Part shown: positions 1 to 64,000 of the stretch, in pieces
Position numbering within the stretch: position 1 is the stretch's first letter
Layout of the letters: every line of letters starts with the position of its first letter
Source of the DNA: Ectocarpus siliculosus
Taxonomy: Eukaryota; Sar; Phaeophyceae; Ectocarpales; Ectocarpaceae
Direction of reading: 5' to 3'
DNA: 64,000 nt
NCBI GenBank assembly: GCA_000310025.1
Contig: FN648885.1
Coordinates: forward strand, 637,807 to 701,806
Translations under genes and position numbers: made by a program
Notes under the pieces: generated by a model
The model's input: the letters and a program-made list of their open reading frames with translations, nothing else
Database searches by the model: none
Told to the model about the DNA's origin: nothing

Positions 1-245
1 GGTACCCCCCGGTCACACCCCGATCGTGCCAGAACGAGAAACTACACCGTCTGCTGGCCAAACAGAGGCCAGTATCATAACGTCATGCACAAACCCTCAG
101 CAGTTCTAAAATTCAGGGCGTTCTGCGCCGTGTTGGCCGCACACGAGCCGAAAACGTCAGCCCTGCCACATTTCTCTGCTGACGTTCTTGCCTATGGGCC
201 GAAAAGAGCCGATTTTGCGCCTGCTGCATGTGTGACCAGTTCAAA

Positions 246-860
246 ACGCATGCCAGAGAGAGGCCTTAAGCCGTCGACATCCACAAACTGCAGCCAATGG
301 CGTGTGTTCATACTCATACCCTCTGCTCGTGTACCAGAAACAGAGCGTGTTGTCCAGTTTTGAATGCACACGGCCTGCAAACGTGAACCAAAGTGTGTTG
401 CGGTGTTGACTTTTTGGTCTTTTTTCTTGTTCCGCCGCGTGTTTGCTCCGTGTGTCACCCGCGACCAATCAAAGACGCATGCCAGAGAGAGGTCTTTGGC
501 CGACGACATCCACAAACAGCAGCCAGTGGCGTGTGGTCATACACATACCCTTTGCTCGCGTCCCAGAAACAGAGCGTATCGTCCAGTTTTGATTGCACAC
601 GGCCTGCAAACGTGAATCGAGGTGTGGTTCGGTGTTGCCTTTTTTGGACGTTGCTTTTTTTTTCTGCCGCTTGCTCTGAGTCGAGTGTGATCAATGTACA
701 ACGCATGCCATCAGAGAGAGGCCTTTGGCCGACGGCATCCACAAACTGCAGCCACTGGCGTGCGATGATACGCATGCCCTGTGCAGGCGACCCATAAACA
801 GGGCTCTCTGTGTCTTGTTGGCCGCACACGAGCAAAAACCGTGTACTGAAGCATGTTGTG
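246..860. repeat. Tandem repeat, about 229-bp period, three copies
   Basis: A block beginning ACGCATGCCAGAGAGAGG recurs at about 246, 475 and 701 (the last with a small insertion). Each copy is followed by the same order of motifs: CATCCACAAAC, GCAGCCA, TGGCGTG, then a CATACC-like stretch and AAACAG. The first two copies share nearly the whole unit, including ACGGCCTGCAAACGTGAA; the third decays after about 160 bp. A fragment GTTGGCCGCACACGAGC occurs both before the first copy (about 132) and inside the third (about 818), so the array probably extends leftwards as a degraded unit. Confidence 0.8.
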
Positions 861-2833
861 ACCCACAAGAACATGAATCAGCCTCTTTTTTCCCTTAAAA
901 AAAAAAAACCTTTTTTCCCTTCAAAAAAAAATATACCTCGAGGAACCGTATGACGGTCGTTTGGATCTTGACATTTATTTCCGTGAGGTCATTCCCCCCG
1001 ACCGAGAGAAAAAAAAATCTCCGAAATAATGACGCCGTACGACTCAGCCTTCGTGCCAGGCTGTCGTCAATTTAGAATTTTTGCTCAGAACACGACGTAC
1101 ATGGCAACACTTAGCTGAGTGCTGTTCGCCTTCATTGCCGGGGCCATGTGGTTACCACCTGGTATGTCGCCCCTCGTCTGCACACGACAACAAGTTGTAG
1201 CGTGGAAGGAAGTTCACTGTAGTGCACTACAGAGTACATCGTCTATATATATGCATACGGTGGTACCAGTGACATCACCCCCGCTCAGCGCAACACACCA
1301 TGCGAATGCGGCAGTGTTATCATACCCCTGGTTATCACTTACCCTTGTTCATGGCTGCCGAGATCTTTACTTTATCACCCGGGCTACGGGCTACAAGAAA
1401 AAAGAGGCGATGTCCCGGGGCGCCGGGGTGTGTTATCTTACATAAGCGTTACGACAACCATTGCAACCCATGGAATATCCAGAAAATATCTTCTCGTGGT
1501 CTTTGATGCACCTGAGCACCGCAGATTTTCACTCAGAGCATCAGTCAAGATCGCAAGGTAGGTACATGTAGGTAGATGTTCGATTGGCTTGCGGAATATC
1601 GCTACTGTTTGGCAAAAAGACGAAGTACTGTATCAACTTGAACGACGGACCCAATTCGGTACTCACGTAGTCTTTCGTGGTCTCCGCCTGGTGCGTCTTG
1701 GAGCGTTGCGCAGACGACAATTTGCTTCCCATGATGCGGTCAAAGAGAGCCGAAGAGGCGGAGGAAGTGGCGATCCAGTTCAGTACCAACAGCCAAGAGA
1801 GCCAACACCGAGCCCAGTCAGCGGTTAAACGTTGAGAACAGCAAACACCACGCCATGTGTGTAATGCAGCAGCAGGCAGAGTTTAGAGGGGCTCCGCATG
1901 ATGGATGCTGGGGGCGGGTTCGTGCGTGGTGTATGAACGGGGCAGTGGCTGACATGGTTGACCCGAATGCCGGCCGTTGGCCGCTGCAGTATTCGACCAT
2001 GCCGACACGACTCGAAGCGAAAGGCGTGTGAGAGAAGCGAGGCCAGGGCGTGGAGGAATCAGCGTTGTCCAAGCGGGTGAGATTGATTAACAATACCTGG
2101 TAGAGACTACTGCTGTTGTTGAACCTGGGGTAGAACATCGGACACACGGAGTGTTGCCAACGGCACCGCTAGAGACGTAAGGTGTCAGCACTGCATAGAC
2201 CCGCAGATCACCAGCAGCAGTAGAGACATTCACACCACTTCAATTCGCGGGCCGTCTACTTCATCAGCTTTGCAAAAGCTGGCCATCTATAACTCTTTTG
2301 GTCCATCTTTTAGCAGGGCGTCGGCAAGCTTGGCAAGTGCGGGAAAACCCCCATCTTCCCAGCCACCGATGCGGACGAACAGCCTGTATTTTTCTCTTTT
2401 TTTAGAGTACATGGTTTACCACAAGCAGCAGGATCTTGGCCTTGAAAACAAGACTGGCCCGTGGTTTCACTATGCCGTGTTATTCTAGTTGGGTGGAACA
2501 TTCAACTCTAACCCCACGGCAGCATGAATGGGAGGACGCTCACATCGTGAGGAACTGAGGAACTGCCAAATATTCTTCTTGATGTTCCGACAGCGGAAAA
2601 GTCCGAGGTGGAGAGCGAACCCCTAAAGGCAGACAAACCCCTGATTCCTTGAATAATCTGTGAGAACGACTCCGAACCATCTGCGGTACGTATTTGGTCT
2701 TCGCGAAAAGTTGGAGCTGTCATGGAGGTAGGTGCCTGGGAGATCACTTGCTTATTTGTGTGGGTAGGGTTGGCAGGGTCGACTTTTTGTTTGGGGTAGA
2801 CAAAAAAGAGTTGGTACATAAGTCAATACTGCT

Positions 2834-55762: not shown

Positions 55763-56516
55763 TAAGGGTCGGTCTTAACGAAGAAATCAGATCTCGAAAT
55801 CACATTCACATTTGGTTATAAGACCGGAAGATCCACAGAACTCTTTCGTTGAATGGCTGAAATGTTATGGAACCCGTCGAATCTTCAGGACTTATAACAG
55901 GACGACCCAAAACCAAGTCGGGATTAAAAAAAAGGTGAAATCATAACCCTCCGTCAAGGCCAGTGACAGTTCTGTCGATAGATGCGGCGGAACACGGACG
56001 GCGCGGTAGATTTTGTACTATTGTACGGCAGCAGAGCATGCCATACCTCCATCACCATCTGCATGGTGCCTGGCGCCTGATGCTATGGCGCCTGTACATC
56101 GTCCATAGCAGTTGTTGGTTCTGTCTGTCGGTGCCGCTGGTGACTCGCAAAAAATCTCTACATACAGTATCATCGTTGTCGGCGATGAGTTTTTTTTGGT
56201 GGATGAGCGACACGGACGAGTGCGATTCCGATTCCGACGGGTTGATGGCTCTGCTCGGATACCCATGACAACATGGTTGACACAAAAAATGCCTGAAAAG
56301 CGTCAAAGCGTCCGTTGCGAATGATGTTGTAGTGGTATGCACGCGTGATGAAGTCTGGTTGACCCGTGAAGAAGAACTCACTTGTTGTTACTCTTGTAGA
56401 ACAGCAGCAGCAGTAGTAGCTGTTGCCTTGGGTATCGGTAGGAATGACACCAAGGGGCACAGGATCCTCTGCACAAGCAGGGGCTACTAGATCATGTCCC
56501 CTACTTTTTATCCTTC

Positions 56517-56540
56517 CGCGGAGAGTTACATCTCTCCGCG
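56517..56540. repeat. 9-bp hairpin in presumed retroelement 3' region
   Basis: CGCGGAGAG and CTCTCCGCG pair perfectly around a 6-base loop (TTACAT). Its position downstream of the retroelement stop codon makes it a candidate LTR structure. Confidence 0.6.
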
Positions 56541-57172
56541 CCTTCTAGAAGGAACCAAGCTCTTCTATGTTCCGTCTACACATCTGAATCCTATAACACT
56601 AGCCCACCCTGGAGGTTCTCATACGCAGATACTGTAAAACCTCGAGTCTTGACAAGCAATTGTCGAGTCTCTAAATGAAAGTATCGAGGATGTGGAGCTC
56701 CAAAACAGCACAATTCACCCTCCCACACCTCTCACTCGATGAGTCGCAAGACCATCGTTTGACTTCTAAAACGACAAAAAGACACAGACAGGAAGGAACT
56801 GACGGGGCTAAGAAAAGCCTACGACGACCGGAAGAAGATCGGAACCAAAGAAAGGAAGACACAAAAAAAGGAAGAAAAACAGAAAAGAAAAACAGAAAAG
56901 AAAAACAAAGGTCGTCAAAACGACAAAAAGAAAGGGTCACTGCAGGAACCACAACAAGACCGGTATCGTAAGAAAACGACAAGATACGCCATTCACGCAG
57001 TCGCCACGGCAGTGTAGAAGGGGCATCAATGGGCGCGAAACACCTACAGGTCGTGACCAAACGCTAAAGGCACAAAATAAAGCGCGGAGAAAGCGAAATC
57101 AACCAAGGCTAAAAAAGAACAACCCAAACAACGCTGAAAACAACAGAAAGCCAAGACAACTAGCACGTCGTC

Positions 57173-58700
57173 TTAATGTGGGCGCGCAACGTTATCAGGC
57201 AACGAATCCGTCCCGGGGTCACCACGCGACATGTCGACGTTGCGAAGGATCCCCTTAAAAAGGGCACTGCCGCTGTGAACTTGGAGGCACCAGGATCCGG
57301 AGACGGCGGTTTCAGCGGTGGAGTAGCGAACATCAGGAAGGGCGAGCTTGACAGGGCCAGGATCGTCCAAGAAGCGGACGACGTAGAAGTCGGACGGTAG
57401 AGGTGGTCCAGTAATCTTGCCCAACCACCAGAATCCATCGCGAGCTTTGTACCAGAAGAAGGCGCCTGCAGGTAGCGGAGTATTGGCGAAGCGACGGTCC
57501 CAAGTTGAACGAGAGACGAGCGAATAACCCGAAGGCAAAGCTCGCTCCCCTTTAGCGCGCGCCATCTCGCGGGTGGCCGCACCAATACGCATCGCCCGAT
57601 AGCGACGATTCGTTTGGCGATGTTGATCAGGCGAACCCGTCCAGTACCGGAGAATGTGGGGCTTGGAATGCTGGAGGTCCATCTCACGTTCCCAAGAAGG
57701 ACGAAGAAGACCTTTCCAATGCGTTTGGTATAAAACAGCGATGGTGCCACCACGGCCACGAACAGACTGATGGCCACTAATGCGGTCAACCTCGAGACGT
57801 TCGACCGGAGTCGACACGTCGTCTTCCGTAACATGGTAGGGAGGAGATTTATTCGCATAGGAGTTTAGCACATACGGTGTAAGGCCGGCAGGCAGGAACC
57901 GAGGCAAGTCTTCAGTGTCATGCGGATTAGCGCAAGGTTTGCAACGCGCAACTGACACACGGTTTTTCGAGTCCGGACCCGGCAGATCCGATGGAAGGTC
58001 AAAATACAGTAATTTGGAAGCCAGAGGACAACCGTCGGGAGCGTCAGGACACGGACCCACGGCCAAGATCTTGAACGGACCAGTCCACAGGAAGGACAAC
58101 TTAGCCTTGAGGACCTTGTCATCCGTGCCTGAACGAACACCTTGGCGAATGGTAGATTCGGTGTTGTACACCCAAACCCATCCACCGACGGTGTATGAGG
58201 GGACCTTGCGCAAAGCATCCGATAGGGCGGAGTTACGCCGCTCAATCCTCGAAACGGACAGGTTGTGCTGTTCGCGAACTAAATCGTAAGAACGACGTTG
58301 GCGATCAGCAGCCAGATCGCAATACTCAAGTTGATCGCGATGCAAGCTTTGGTGGCCTCGAGCATATGGATGCTCAAAAACCGTCATCGGCATGCGTGGC
58401 AGTCGGTTCATATGCACCTCGTTGGGCGCCAAACCAGTAGCGGCACTAACCGAATTGTTGTAGGCAAACTCAACGTGCGGCAAATGAATGTCCCAATCAT
58501 CTTGCCTCTCATTGACGACCATAGCCAACATCTGAGCCATAGTGTGATTTACGCGCTCCACACCCCCATTGCCGTTGGGATGGTAAGAGCTGGTAGCCAC
58601 TTTGCGTATAGCCAGACGGGCGTATACAGCCTGCGACAGTTTAGAACAAAACTGAGAGCCATTATCAGACAAGAGACTCAAAGGGCAACCCCATAAAAGG
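57173..58700 (-). CDS. Retroelement polyprotein part 3: integrase core C-half, chromodomain, SH3/Tudor-like module
   Basis: This continues the integrase with LLSDNGSQF and YHPNGNGGVERVNHTM. The two acidic residues are separated by exactly 35 residues, the D35E spacing of retroviral-type integrases. Next come the GPF-type C-terminal integrase region (LWTGPFKIL), then a chromodomain with VERLEVDR, HWKG, SWE and LRYW (57632-57805). A further module (57308-57469) with GAFFWYKARDGFWWLGKI and YVVRFLDD looks like an SH3/Tudor-type fold. Chromodomains in such elements steer integration towards modified histones; the extra module could add a second chromatin contact. The frame ends at 57173. Confidence 0.88.
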
Positions 58701-59690
58701 GATATACCGATTGACAAGTACGTCAGCGGTGCCTTCGGCGGTGAATTCTGCAGCCGTAACCGCGTACATGTCAGCACGGCGGCTGAAACGGTCAGTGAAA
58801 AGCAGAATATATGTGTTTCCGCGCGGTGTCAACGGGAGGGGACCGAAATAATCGACGCTCACCGATACACCAGGGCCCGAAGGCAGCGGAAGGCACAAAG
58901 TAGGCCATCGAGGCGTTTGACGAGATGACTTGCGAGCTTGGCATCGCAAACAATGCCGTACCCACCACTTCGTGCAAACACTCATGCCAACCCACCAATA
59001 AAAACGTTCCAGCATGCTAAGCGTGCGAGCGGCACCGAGGTGGCAGGATGCATCAGCGTGACAGGCTTGCATGATCCACGGACGCATGAGCATGGGAACA
59101 TAAATCCGAATGGGTTCGTCGTTGAGAAGGCGAGCAGCACGCCCGCCAGGACGTGTGGTCGTAGACGACGGGGGCGCTGTTTGCTTGCGAACAAGCAAGA
59201 CCAAACCATCATCGTCAACATGTAACCGGCCTTTGTTAGACAGGTCACGAATCTCCGACAGAGGGGGTCGACGAGCGGACGGAAGATGATCCAGGAAATC
59301 CGGAGGGAGAGCCGAAGGCCGACCCAGAAGGATGAAACGAATAGCTGCATCACAAACAGGTTCGTTACGTTGCTCGCGAGCCCAATCAGCATGCGAGAAA
59401 CGTTCGACAGACGCCCGGAAGGCTAAATCTGCAGAGGAATGTAAAGCCGCCTCGATAGAAGAGGGGGCCGATTCCTGAGGCTCCGGCTGCAATCCACCCG
59501 AAGGCAGAGTAGCAGCGGAAACCGAAGACGAAGGCGTATAAGTGGTCGAAACCAAATGCGTCGAAGATTCCGAAGAATCGGGAGCAGCAGAAGACTGCTG
59601 GGCAGGAGCAACCGAAGTCGCAGGATGCGTCGAAGACGCAAGATCCCTTCCACGAGCCAGAGGCGTGGGAGGTCTGGGATCGAAGTGTCA
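58665..59690 (-). CDS. Retroelement polyprotein part 2: integrase N-terminal half
   Basis: A frame different from part 1. It starts in a Ser/Thr/Pro-rich spacer and carries the integrase zinc finger (His at HADASCH, Cys at CLRC). The first catalytic Asp follows in SVDYFGPLP, then FTDRFSR. It stops at 58665 shortly after the next frame change. Translation could begin at any of several points; in an intact element it would be part of one polyprotein with parts 1 and 3. Confidence 0.85.
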
Positions 59691-62600
59691 GCACCAGGAG
59701 CCGAAACCAACCTGGTCAAAACGGGGGGCGCCGTCGATGCTGATTGTGCAGGCGGGGAACGTCGAAACGATCTGGGCGAAGCGGAAATCCGAGTAGGAGC
59801 AGGCGGGTCCTCAGAGAAACCATAATCCACGGGCGGGAGGGGCGTGCCTGCCACAACCGCCGTGCGACGGCGAGTTCGCGTGGAAATTAGTTGAGTAGGG
59901 TCGAGAGTCCGTCGTGATGCTGCAGTCGGCGAGACGGCCGGCGAAGACTCGGGCTCGAGAGCCAAAATGTCCTCCACCGAAGAATGTAAGGAGCCAGACC
60001 AATCGAGGGTCCTGCCACACAGGCGTCGTAGCGAAGGAGACAACCCGCGGGAGTTGTTAGACGGCCAGGGTGCGATGTTCCAGACGCCAGGCGGAGACGA
60101 AAGGCCTGACGGCGAGAGACGTGGACCATGCCGACGGAAGTCGACAAAATCATCTGTAGAGGGGGCCAGCCCACCCAAGACCGAAGTCGGGGAAGTCGGG
60201 ACGAGCCCACCCAAGCCAACACCCACGGCGCGATGGCCAGAAGGCGTAAGGCCACAAGAACGGATGAAGAATACGCTCTCCTCATCGTCATCCGGTGTCA
60301 AGCGACTGCGACCAGATCGGTCACATTCCGCCGCATCGATCGGAAGGCGAGAGAGGAAATCAGCGTTGTCATTTGCTGAACCCTTGCGGTACTCGAGAGT
60401 GTAATTGTAGGCGGTAAGAAATTCAAGCCAACGCTGAACGCGGGCATTGTTCTCCCCCACCTTGGCAAAATGCTCAAGAGATTTGTGGTCGGTAAAAATG
60501 CGAAATTTCGTGCCCCACAAATAACCGCGGAGTCGTTTGATGCACCATACGATGCTACCCGCCTCGAGGTCGAGGGGAGTCCAATGACGTTCGGAGTCCA
60601 AAGTAGCTCGGCTGATGAAAACGATGGGCCGGATGGAGCCATCCGGCTGTTCTTGTTCGAGAGTCCCGCCGAACCCATCGCGACTAGCATCACAGTAGAG
60701 GCGAAAAGGTCGCGAGCCGTCCGTAACGGCATCCCAGTCTGGATAAACCAAGACAGGAGGATTGGCCAACTCAGACAGCAGGACGCGAACAGCTTGCTCC
60801 ATGGCAGGGGTGAAGGCAAACGTCGCCTGCTTCTTGAGAAGAGTGGTCAGAGGTCGAATTCGCGTGGCCATGTTGGGAAGGAACTTGCGGTAGTAGCTGA
60901 GGCCGCCGAGAAGAGAGCGAAGTTGTTTAACATCCTTTGGCATGGGCATTTGGGTGAGGGCCGCAACCTTGGCCCCGTTAGGCCGAACACCGTCCGGGGA
61001 GATGGTGTGGCCGAGGAAATCCGCTTCGGTAGCGCCAATGGTGGCCTTCGGTGGGGTGAGTTTCAAGTTGTGTGTGCGCAAGCGTTGAAACAGAGCGCGC
61101 ATGGTATCAACATGAGAAGCAGGGTTGTCGTCGAAAACGATCAAATCATCCAAGTACGATGCAACACCGTGGAGATTTTTGATGACTTCGTTGACCACCT
61201 TGCAAAACCACCCAGGGGCAGCAGAACTGCCCTGAGGCATCTTCAACCACTCAAAAAGCCCGGAAGACGTCACGAATGCCGTCAAAGGGATTGTATCACG
61301 GTGAACCGTGATTTGGTGGAATGAAGACTTCATGTCGAAAAGGGAATAAATTCGCCCTTTCAACAACTTGTCCAAAGTATCATCAACTCGAGGAATCGGA
61401 AGCTGGCTCAAAGCACAGAGCTTGTTGAGCTTGCGATAGTTGACAGTGATGCGAACACCACCAGATTTCTTCGGTATGACTACCAAAGGACTCGAGTAGG
61501 GCGAGGTCGAATGTTGGATCAGACCAGCCGCAAGATATTGATCAAGGATCGCGTCAACTTGTTTCGCCACCGGGGGGTTAACGCGGTATGGACGAGACGT
61601 GACGGGTGCACTGCCCGGAGGAACTGTAAGCTTGAAAGGAAAAAGCGAACAAGATCCAAAGTCGGTGGGGGAACTCGAGAAGACATCATGATAGTCGCAC
61701 AGGACGTTACCAAGCTGAGTGATGACATCCGGAGTCCAACCCGGACCATGGAGATCAAAAGAAATCTCCCGGAGATGGCAGGGGAGCTTATCCCATACGT
61801 GGGAAAAACTCTGACGTTGTTCAGACGTCAACCGCTCGAGAAGAGCAGGCGGAGGCGACGAAAGAGAAGCACTGGCAGAACCAGGGTCCTCTTTGCCGCT
61901 TTGCGACGGCGTGGGTCGCTCATGCAAATTATACACGAAGGGGTCATCAATGCGATGCGTGGCAGACGAATCAATGCCATCTGTCGAAACAGGACCCGGA
62001 ACCCAGCTGCCCGAAGCAGTGGTGGGATCTTGAGCCGCAGGTTGAAGACCATCGCTCAAACTGTGGTGAGACACAGCACTGAGAGGCACGCGAAGAAGGG
62101 GAGCCGAAGCTGTACCCAGAACGTCGCCTGGTTCGAGTGAAGAGATACCCGCGAGCGGGAGTCGTTGGCAACCATTTTGCACAAAGTGTTCCTCGGAAGA
62201 AAACATAGCACATTGTGGAAGCATATCCACGAGATAGTTACCCACGAGGGCTGGAGAGCCATCGCTGCGTACCAAATTAACCGGAACAAGGCTATGTTCA
62301 GGGTGAAGTTGGACGGAATGTTTTCCAGCATAGCGAAGCTGGTAGTTACCATCTGTGGAAGACAAATCGTGAGCAAATGCGGTGGCACCGCAACTGCTAT
62401 GCTGAGCCAGGGTAAGCTCACCAAAAACACGGTCACCAGGGCGTTTGGCACGCAAAGTGCGGTAAGAGCGGTCGCTAAACCGCATCCAACTGTCTCTCTC
62501 AAGGAGCACGTCATGATGCATAACACCATCGGGAACAACGTACGCCCAAACAGCGAGAGAGGAAGTAGGAAGGCGCTTGCGAAGAAACTGCACGCTCAAA

Positions 62601-64000
62601 CGGACAATAGTCGAAGTTTGAAGTGGAGCAGATTCGCCGAAACCTCCCCAACAGCGAGGTTGGGTTTGTTTCTCAGACAACGACGAAGCTGCCGAAGCGG
62701 CTTTCATGGATTCCCACGCAGATGCACTAATAAAAGACTGCGGGGAACCCGTGTCTAAAAGAGCAACACATCCAAACTGAACAGAAGCTGAACCACTGTG
62801 AGTGAGGATTTGGGTGGTGAAAGAGTCATCATCGATGGTAACAACACCATCAACCAAATCCGGACCTTGCTCAGGAAGCAAAGAAGAGGAAGAGGATGGC
62901 TGAGGGCACCCGGAAGACACGGCCCAAACAGCGGTGTCATGATCCGATGGAACATTCGCAGCGTATTGTGAAAACGACGCGAATCGTTCAGTCGACGGAG
63001 GGGTTGAGGCCATCCGAATACGCTGGTGTGTAGAAGGGCTAACTTCATAAACCGCGTTATGTTGAGACGACGTCGAAACGTGGTCGTTGGGAGGCAGCAA
63101 ACGAGAGCTGCGCTCGGGCGGCGGGGCATTGCACCGCAAAAGACTGCGTACTCGTTGAAGGGCATTGCCCAACAAATTGAGGCCACGCCATCGAGAGGTG
63201 GATAGAGCGTCGGGATCATCGGCTTGAAGGCCAATGCCCCAAATACGGTCGTAAGGACTAGCTTCGGCAAGGTTTTTGTCGCCAGATCCGAGAAGATGCT
63301 CGCGCAACTCGGAGTTTTGACTAAATTTTGCGTAAGAGCCAGTGAGCACAATATTTTCGCGCTCCTGTTCCCAAAGTGATGGGTCGAAACCACGGACACC
63401 TCGGCCAAACTTCTTGTGTAAGGCAGGATCGGACACGCGCATGATGTTTTGTAAAGCGCAATGGTCTTCGAAAAGACGAGCTTTTTCCGCAGCGAAAAAC
63501 TGCTCAGCACACGAGTATACCACTCCATCGACCACAAAAGTCGACGGGGTCCATTGGGAAAAGGGAGAGGGGGGCTGCCAAAAGAAGACCATATCAGGAG
63601 TACAATACTCGTTAGATGGGTCGAAGACAGCGGGAACTGCAGGAGTCGAAACACCTGGAGTGCGGTCAGCCGAAGCTGAGGTTGCAGCCGAAGCTGATGT
63701 AGTCGAAACGGAGGCAGCCGAAACGCCCGCATTGTAATTTACGGCGTGAACGTCCATGGGGACGGTCTCGGACATGCCAGAGACCGGCGAAGAATCGGCC
63801 GGAGCCGGATTGGTCGCAATAATTGGGCCAGCGACATGACGTTGGGTGCGCCCCAATTCTAAACCTGAAGAAACGCCTCGTAAGGTGTCATTCAACAGGT
63901 TGCTTTCGCTAGAAACGGCCGCCAAGGCCGGGTCGGTTAAAGAACCAAACCGGGCGTGGTGCTCCTGGCCATTCCTCCGTGACAAGGTACGCGAGACCGC
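59423..64000 (-). CDS. Retroelement polyprotein part 1: NADAR, protease, RT, RNase H
   Basis: The frame is open from the window edge; the first plausible codon used for numbering is TTG at 63985, so the true start is upstream. Residues about 131-283 are a NADAR domain. About 400-515 is the aspartic protease (LLDTGSP, Asp411). About 800-1000 is reverse transcriptase with MPQGSSAAP and the catalytic YLDD (944-947). About 1090-1215 is RNase H (YCDAS, TDHKSLEHF, NDNADFLSRLP). Residues 284-400 and 1220-1480 are Ser/Pro-rich linkers. Coding character in this frame fades near 59690, where it becomes an Arg/Leu-rich shadow and a different frame takes over. All RT and RNase H motifs look intact. Confidence 0.9.
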   Translation of the reverse strand, partial: AVSRTLSRRNGQEHHARFGSLTDPALAAVSSESNLLNDTLRGVSSGLELGRTQRHVAGPIIATNPAPADSSPVSGMSETVPMDVHAVNYNAGVSAASVSTTSASAATSASADRTPGVSTPAVPAVFDPSNEYCTPDMVFFWQPPSPFSQWTPSTFVVDGVVYSCAEQFFAAEKARLFEDHCALQNIMRVSDPALHKKFGRGVRGFDPSLWEQERENIVLTGSYAKFSQNSELREHLLGSGDKNLAEASPYDRIWGIGLQADDPDALSTSRWRGLNLLGNALQRVRSLLRCNAPPPERSSRLLPPNDHVSTSSQHNAVYEVSPSTHQRIRMASTPPSTERFASFSQYAANVPSDHDTAVWAVSSGCPQPSSSSSLLPEQGPDLVDGVVTIDDDSFTTQILTHSGSASVQFGCVALLDTGSPQSFISASAWESMKAASAASSLSEKQTQPRCWGGFGESAPLQTSTIVRLSVQFLRKRLPTSSLAVWAYVVPDGVMHHDVLLERDSWMRFSDRSYRTLRAKRPGDRVFGELTLAQHSSCGATAFAHDLSSTDGNYQLRYAGKHSVQLHPEHSLVPVNLVRSDGSPALVGNYLVDMLPQCAMFSSEEHFVQNGCQRLPLAGISSLEPGDVLGTASAPLLRVPLSAVSHHSLSDGLQPAAQDPTTASGSWVPGPVSTDGIDSSATHRIDDPFVYNLHERPTPSQSGKEDPGSASASLSSPPPALLERLTSEQRQSFSHVWDKLPCHLREISFDLHGPGWTPDVITQLGNVLCDYHDVFSSSPTDFGSCSLFPFKLTVPPGSAPVTSRPYRVNPPVAKQVDAILDQYLAAGLIQHSTSPYSSPLVVIPKKSGGVRITVNYRKLNKLCALSQLPIPRVDDTLDKLLKGRIYSLFDMKSSFHQITVHRDTIPLTAFVTSSGLFEWLKMPQGSSAAPGWFCKVVNEVIKNLHGVASYLDDLIVFDDNPASHVDTMRALFQRLRTHNLKLTPPKATIGATEADFLGHTISPDGVRPNGAKVAALTQMPMPKDVKQLRSLLGGLSYYRKFLPNMATRIRPLTTLLKKQATFAFTPAMEQAVRVLLSELANPPVLVYPDWDAVTDGSRPFRLYCDASRDGFGGTLEQEQPDGSIRPIVFISRATLDSERHWTPLDLEAGSIVWCIKRLRGYLWGTKFRIFTDHKSLEHFAKVGENNARVQRWLEFLTAYNYTLEYRKGSANDNADFLSRLPIDAAECDRSGRSRLTPDDDEESVFFIRSCGLTPSGHRAVGVGLGGLVPTSPTSVLGGLAPSTDDFVDFRRHGPRLSPSGLSSPPGVWNIAPWPSNNSRGLSPSLRRLCGRTLDWSGSLHSSVEDILALEPESSPAVSPTAASRRTLDPTQLISTRTRRRTAVVAGTPLPPVDYGFSEDPPAPTRISASPRSFRRSPPAQSASTAPPVLTRLVSAPGADTSIPDLPRLWLVEGILRLRRILRLRLLLPSSLLLLPILRNLRRIWFRPLIRLRLRFPLLLCLRVDCSRSLRNRPPLLSRRLYIPLQI
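63137..63595 (-). other. NADAR (YbiA-like) domain inside the retroelement polyprotein
   Basis: Motifs in order, numbered from the codon at 63985: FFWQPPSPFSQWTPSTF (134-150), YSCAEQFFAAEKA (157-169, with the conserved Glu161 and Lys168), GRGVRGFD (194-201), AKFSQN (219-224), EASPYDRIWGIG (241-252) and NLLGNALQRVR (270-280). This is the full NADAR signature at normal length (about 150 residues) with no stop or frameshift. NADAR proteins act on ADP-ribose-linked or riboflavin-pathway substrates. Some are known as glycohydrolases that remove ADP-ribose from guanine, as antitoxins to DarT-type enzymes. Whether this copy is catalytic is inference. Confidence 0.92.

Follow-up and report, generated by a model that had tools for sequence, protein, structure and literature searches.

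A YbiA-class NADAR domain under purifying selection in the Pol polyprotein of Ty3/gypsy retrotransposons from Ectocarpus siliculosus

The fusion of a NADAR domain to a Ty3/gypsy retrotransposon is already known. A NADAR-bearing lineage of Ectocarpus sp. 7, which includes Gypsy-12_Ec32, has been described together with a proposed bacterial-type source of the capture, and chromodomains are reported for the NADAR-gypsy lineages (PMC12477816, Genome Biology 2025). Here we analyse a 64,000-nucleotide stretch of Ectocarpus siliculosus DNA (the window; contig FN648885.1, positions 637,807 to 701,806), which carries a frame-broken, end-truncated copy of a Ty3/gypsy long terminal repeat (LTR) retrotransposon with a NADAR domain in its Pol. 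The window family is likened to Gypsy-12_Ec32 by description, not by sequence identity, and the parts of that paper compared contain neither a test of selection nor a gag/pol stop or a count of catalytic residues, all of which the present analysis supplies (PMC12477816). What is new beyond print is this supporting evidence for the fusion and the lead to a gypsy element with both Macro and NADAR. Judging by titles and the start of abstracts, no other paper on NADAR in retrotransposons was found, and none of the papers listed deals with a Macro-bearing LTR element.

Statements about published work apply here to the parts of each paper that were compared. To our knowledge, the NADAR of Phytophthora nicotianae has no retroelement context. 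That protein (PDB 8bau) is a guanine-ADP-ribose hydrolase, solved and assayed as an isolated domain, unlike the element-borne NADAR; in a related NADAR, changing E125 or K50 abolished efficient hydrolysis, and replacing E43 by Gln did likewise (PMC11543638). Myxobacterial and planctomycete YbiA-class NADARs (the YbiA-like antitoxin of the YarT pair) rank with the bacterial sequences nearest the gypsy clade, but are stand-alone bacterial proteins (PMC11125620). The NADAR in ORF1 proteins of Crassostrea gigas Tx1 LINEs is also retroelement-borne, but these elements are non-LTR and the domain is divergent (PMC12477816). Viral NADAR and Macro are ADP-ribose-processing domains in replication polyproteins of positive-strand RNA viruses, not of retrotransposons; in animal RNA viruses the two are largely mutually exclusive, yet tandem pairs have been noted, and the string 'retrotranspos-' does not occur in that paper (PMC9503650).

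NADAR is under purifying selection in the element lineage

An initial annotation had placed a complete NADAR at 63137..63595 of the window, in one uninterrupted frame with the aspartic protease and reverse transcriptase (RT) and just before the protease. The Pfam match is full length and lies at nearly the same position (63134-63586; residues 139-289 of the open reading frame (ORF) 59423-64000; E 2.1e-45, with a score of 155 bits where the cut-off is 35.1). Downstream in the same frame come RVT_1 and matches to two families of RNase H, and between NADAR and RT lies an LLDTGS sequence, recognized as the aspartic-protease motif. The annotated pocket Glu and Lys are both present, their numbers alone changing from 161/168 to 166/173 in this ORF. 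A Glu at the P. nicotianae E125 position, with pocket Glu43 and Lys50, marks the domain as YbiA-class, and equivalents of E125, K50 and E43 are kept in all 37 element copies counted.

The domain recurs throughout the genome. Searching 189 Mb (492 contigs) with PF08719 gave 230 candidates, and the best 150, which were scored, all exceeded the curated cut-off; 129 have no stop within the NADAR match by hand count. Twenty-two of the 150 lie in frames of 2014-2580 amino acids (aa) with a stop-free match, one of which (L044, on C89) has a scrambled NADAR middle, and two further rows have implausibly long frames of 6365 and 10887 aa. The copies form at least five families, A (that of the window) to E, plus a single copy, F, and the NADARs of families B to F are 54-68% identical to that of the window. 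Five short-frame matches inspected as candidate host NADAR genes (L040-L043 and L046) were read as element fragments, though the genome may still hold a host gene.

Selection was estimated on NADAR sequences taken at 39 places, namely the 30 copies that score highest with Pfam, seven further chosen copies, L035 and the window; frameshifted L044 and L045 were left out and stops in L001, L012, L040 and L043 masked, giving 37 copies (32 distinct). Purifying selection on the domain is evident: omega is 0.156 over the 37 copies (IQ-TREE GY+F3X4; log-likelihood (lnL) -3713.4, against -3906.1 at omega 1 on the same tree) and 0.087 across six family representatives (lnL -2712.5 against -2906.0 at omega 1). 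Taken family by family, omega is 0.255 in A, 0.798 in B, 0.484 in C, 0.437 in D and 0.124 in E, with lnL gains over omega 1, at kappa fixed to 2, of 9.6, 0.3, 1.1, 4.7 and 9.1, respectively.

In both identity and omega, NADAR compares with the protease and RT and not with the linkers. Among five elements, identity is 53-69% for NADAR, 44-76% for the protease and 52-92% for RT, against 19-32%, where alignable, for the linker preceding NADAR and 23-57% for the one following it. Four sequences from families A and E gave omega values of 0.110 for NADAR, 0.048 for the protease, 0.041 for RT and 0.663 for the NADAR-protease linker, which are rough because the between-family branch is saturated (3.4 to 8.8 per codon). 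NADAR thus acts like a core domain, somewhat less constrained than RT. The annotated capture of NADAR by a gypsy-type retrotransposon is supported, since several families and many copies carry the domain. The two outcomes that would have spoken against it were a one-off chimera found in no other copy and neutral evolution with lost catalytic residues; the many copies, the core-like identity and proteins with the same domain order rule out the first, and purifying selection and intact pocket residues run counter to the second.

Anatomy of the copies and the gag/pol junction

In three more complete copies (L033, L034 and L035), a gag-side frame lies in the same frame as pol (2325, 2580 and 2376 aa, respectively), with exactly one TGA between them, and a zinc-knuckle-like stretch is visible by eye on the gag side. 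When 37 copies were followed in frame upstream of NADAR, the sole stop within reach was TGA then C in 14, across five families (A: L025, L030; B: L003, L004, L007, L013, L018; C: L012, L029; D: L019; E: L014, L022, L023, L035); the remaining 23 have other or extra stops or too little sequence, the window copy being among the latter. A UGA with a C directly after it is a stop prone to readthrough. We infer that Pol may be made by TGA readthrough.

RT, RNase H and integrase follow one another in a single polyprotein, the Pol order of Ty3/gypsy elements, with the protease recognized by motif. In both copies examined for LTRs (on C36 and C23), the paired repeats, of 300 and 269 base pairs (bp), are 100% identical, which suggests recent insertion. 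These elements span 13,993 and 13,487 bp, have 3-bp target-site duplications (AAT and ATA), and carry past the 5' LTR a sequence resembling a primer-binding site, TTGGCG, to which no tRNA was assigned. In the C36 copy, of family E, the gag-side frame (L037, frame 2-2245, minus strand) stays open for about 750 aa further upstream through a Glu/Ala/Arg-rich part.

The window copy (Table 1) lacks gag and the 5' LTR because the window stops exactly at the end of contig C472. Its integrase parts occupy two other frames (ORFs 58665-59687 and 57173-58828), so the annotation was right to report two frame changes elsewhere in pol. Past the chromodomain-like part, a segment (FFWYKARDGFWWLGKI...VVRFLDDPGPV) in the C-terminal 120 aa of the minus-strand ORF 57173-58828 looks Tudor-like by eye and has no Pfam match.

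Table 1. Parts of the NADAR-bearing element copy in the window.
Feature	Position	Strand	Remarks
Ty3/gypsy element, family as in L034 copy	56328..64000	-	5' side lost at contig end
3' LTR	56328..56598	-	98.5% identical (271 columns) to the C23 copy's 269-bp LTR
Open frame: linker, NADAR, protease, RT, RNase H	59423..64000	-	1525 aa; open at window end
Ser/Pro/Ala-rich linker preceding NADAR	63587..64000	-	poorly conserved, 19-32% identity between elements where alignable
NADAR (PF08719), YbiA class	63134..63586	-	profile 1-163 of 163; eight pocket residues intact
Aspartic protease region	62453..62857	-	LLDTGS at 62744-62761, between NADAR and RT; region without Pfam match
Reverse transcriptase, RVT_1	61001..61477	-	Pfam; ORF residues 842-1000
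RNase H (RT_RNaseH_2 and RT_RNaseH)	60407..60814	-	Pfam; ORF residues 1063-1198
Integrase zinc-binding domain, H2C2	58923..59099	-	frame different from the NADAR ORF; integrase-frame ORF 58665-59687
Third frame: end of integrase core and C-terminal Pol	57173..58828	-	weak rve match, E 0.0018
Chromodomain-like segment, PF00385	57641..57793	-	E 0.015 in ORF, 6.7e-4 as piece; under curated cut-off

Origin of the domain and a Macro-bearing gypsy protein

The closest named proteins come from Ectocarpus sp. CCAP 1310/34, one of which, P0124, is 94.6% identical to the window over 575 Pol residues and 87.5% over 208 residues with NADAR. Long NADAR proteins were taken as the best 16 of 794 candidates, and 11 of 682; in the four scanned (P0125, P0131, P0140 and P0141, from ENA or NCBI), the order NADAR, RT, RNase H, integrase is repeated. 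Another ENA record, P0142, is a NADAR-gypsy Pol that represents 415 clustered sequences; the lineage may thus reach very high numbers in some genome. An IMG/VR scan with the window ORF gave no matching stretch.

In a tree of 60 NADARs, those of the gypsy Pol linkers and P0018, a stand-alone protein of Pylaiella littoralis, form one clade (98/97), whose 21 rows include two short records that had been labelled bacterial. Next to it in the tree stand bacterial-type sequences, of which those with names are planctomycete or myxobacterial, and named close bacterial NADARs among the 120 listed of 2229 matches are 52-57% identical. This pattern fits one capture from a bacterial-type source before the present families diverged. 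P0018 (248 aa) has its own cysteine-containing N-terminus and may be an element domain that was domesticated, or the product of a donor gene of the host; among 150 of 265 candidates scored in the E. siliculosus genome, none matched it at more than 54% identity.

The eight NADAR elements used in the RT tree also form one clade (100/100), whereas nine of 16 RNase H loci could not be used in it, being without a long frame, too short or identical. L071, from the same genome, has a gag-side frame, TAG and pol in one frame, with a protease and an RT 44% identical to that of the window, and gave no NADAR match. In the RT tree its long branch groups with the NADAR elements, with the fork order left open by the tree; by distance, NADAR would have entered the Pol linker after L071 split, a loss in L071 being a possible alternative. 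A second candidate for a NADAR-less member, L072 (RT 68% identical to that of the window), was read as a truncated copy because the DNA before its protease is stop-rich.

P0139 (1919 aa, ENA, from a contig of 8569 bp) has a different architecture: in Pfam, RT, RNase H and integrase are followed by Macro (residues 1226-1343, E 7e-19) and then NADAR (residues 1422-1570, E 5e-52). Its RT is 30% identical to that of the window and falls, on a long branch, outside the NADAR clade of the RT tree, and its NADAR stands, with weak support, apart from the gypsy clade in the 60-NADAR tree. The closest PDB sequence to its Macro is PARP14 (3vfq, E 1.2e-14), and its NADAR keeps the E43, K50, W89, E125, D130 and W133 positions, with R79 changed to K and R93 to C. 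P0139, known from the protein record alone, is apparently a Macro+NADAR gypsy element independent of the Pol-linker capture; a chimera is possible. When it was compared with genome G000, the best 25 of 1011 candidates were scored and all ended at or before residue 1186, before the Macro, and an IMG/VR scan gave two loci that match the NADAR part only. Pairing Macro with NADAR is unusual for a retroelement but not unprecedented, because viral tandems exist (PMC9503650); in the genome of the window, Macro gave one short match. The tail of P0139 is chromodomain-like by eye, without a Pfam match. P0138 (1883 aa, labelled as a Bacteroidota metagenome-assembled genome, contig 9119 bp), with an N-terminal NADAR and a remainder taken by eye for RT plus a tyrosine recombinase (a DIRS-like retroelement), was not confirmed and stays a lead: Pfam gave NADAR alone, and every structure that a PDB search returned below E 0.01 was a NADAR.

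Possible roles of the element-borne NADAR

The fusion, its copy number, purifying selection, the intact pocket, the single NADAR clade and the single-TGA gag/pol junction are the observations from which a role can be argued. We give a probability of roughly 0.45 to a reading in which a NADAR made by readthrough and packaged with Pol removes ADP-ribose from guanine bases (or from related conjugates) and thereby works against an ADP-ribosyltransferase of the host. A Ty3/gypsy lineage would have taken a YbiA-class, bacterial-type NADAR into the N-terminal Pol linker before its families diverged; low-level TGA readthrough would yield Pol including NADAR, and this Pol would be packaged in the particle. 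There, reverse transcription would expose single-stranded cDNA, and single-stranded DNA is the kind of substrate marked by DarT enzymes (PMC11543638). A host ADP-ribosyltransferase would mark element cDNA, RNA or proteins, and NADAR, as an N-glycosyl hydrolase, would strip ADP-ribose from guanine or related conjugates. A protective role is plausible, given the known activity of NADAR (PMC11543638) and the apparently independent Macro+NADAR gypsy. Matches of the window domain, P0018 and a planctomycete relative (three of three given) to the PADLOC candidate defence family PDC-M42C agree with a role in conflict and prove nothing.

Several points weigh against protection from ADP-ribosylation. 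An exon-by-exon profile search of the genome found no DarT (PF14487), hence no DarT gene beside NADAR as in a DarT1-NADAR toxin-antitoxin pair, and PARP gave four short matches only. Since other gypsies of this genome do without it, NADAR is dispensable for retrotransposition in general. In families B and C, omega is scarcely distinguishable from 1, and with 30 of the 39 sampled copies chosen as best Pfam scorers the sample favours intact domains. The single capture is read from midpoint-rooted trees with weak deep forks. In a related NADAR, changing the first pocket Glu (E43) to Ala had a minor effect in vitro, and Escherichia coli YbiA cleaves riboflavin intermediates at an N-glycosidic bond (PMC11543638); the substrate thus cannot be read from the fold.

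That YbiA activity and the missing DarT match would also suit a NADAR that acts on RNA ends or on small derivatives of NAD or ADP-ribose, in processing or repair of the RNA intermediate; an RNA role has been put forward for NADAR elements (PMC12477816) and discussed for viral NADARs (PMC9503650), and we regard this as possible, if on balance doubtful. It is improbable that NADAR is a non-catalytic binding module, for instance one that anchors Pol on host chromatin or particle proteins bearing ADP-ribose: the chromodomain-like segment at the other end of the same Pol, a weak match in a group with reported chromodomains (PMC12477816), would fit such a module, but the invariant E125, K50 and E43 equivalents and the low omega speak for catalysis, not decisively, as a binding pocket can also be conserved. 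A functionless domain, whether a neutral passenger or an assembly chimera, which the broken frame and contig-end position of the window copy and the near-neutral omega of families B and C might suggest, is scarcely credible and already contradicted by the copy and selection data, given many copies in several families, the between-family omega, a protease-like identity that exceeds most flanking-linker values by a wide margin, and the recurrence of this domain order in proteins from other sources.

If ADP-ribose removal is indeed the role of the domain, a wider and more speculative idea, which we hold unlikely but worth stating, is that the capture of ADP-ribose erasers for counter-defence has happened more than once among LTR retrotransposons, with NADAR in the stramenopile Pol linker and, independently, Macro+NADAR after the integrase of P0139. 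Particle-borne erasers would then clean cDNA or particle parts, and an undiscovered host ADP-ribosyltransferase that restricts retroelements would be predicted. If the Macro+NADAR gypsy were confirmed on DNA, what is now one oddity would become a recurring strategy, with a parallel in RNA viruses. We know of no nucleic-acid ADP-ribosylation defence in the brown algal lineage. If the domain works as proposed, brown algal retroelements carry a selected anti-ADP-ribosylation enzyme, and its presence would point to such a defence in these algae.
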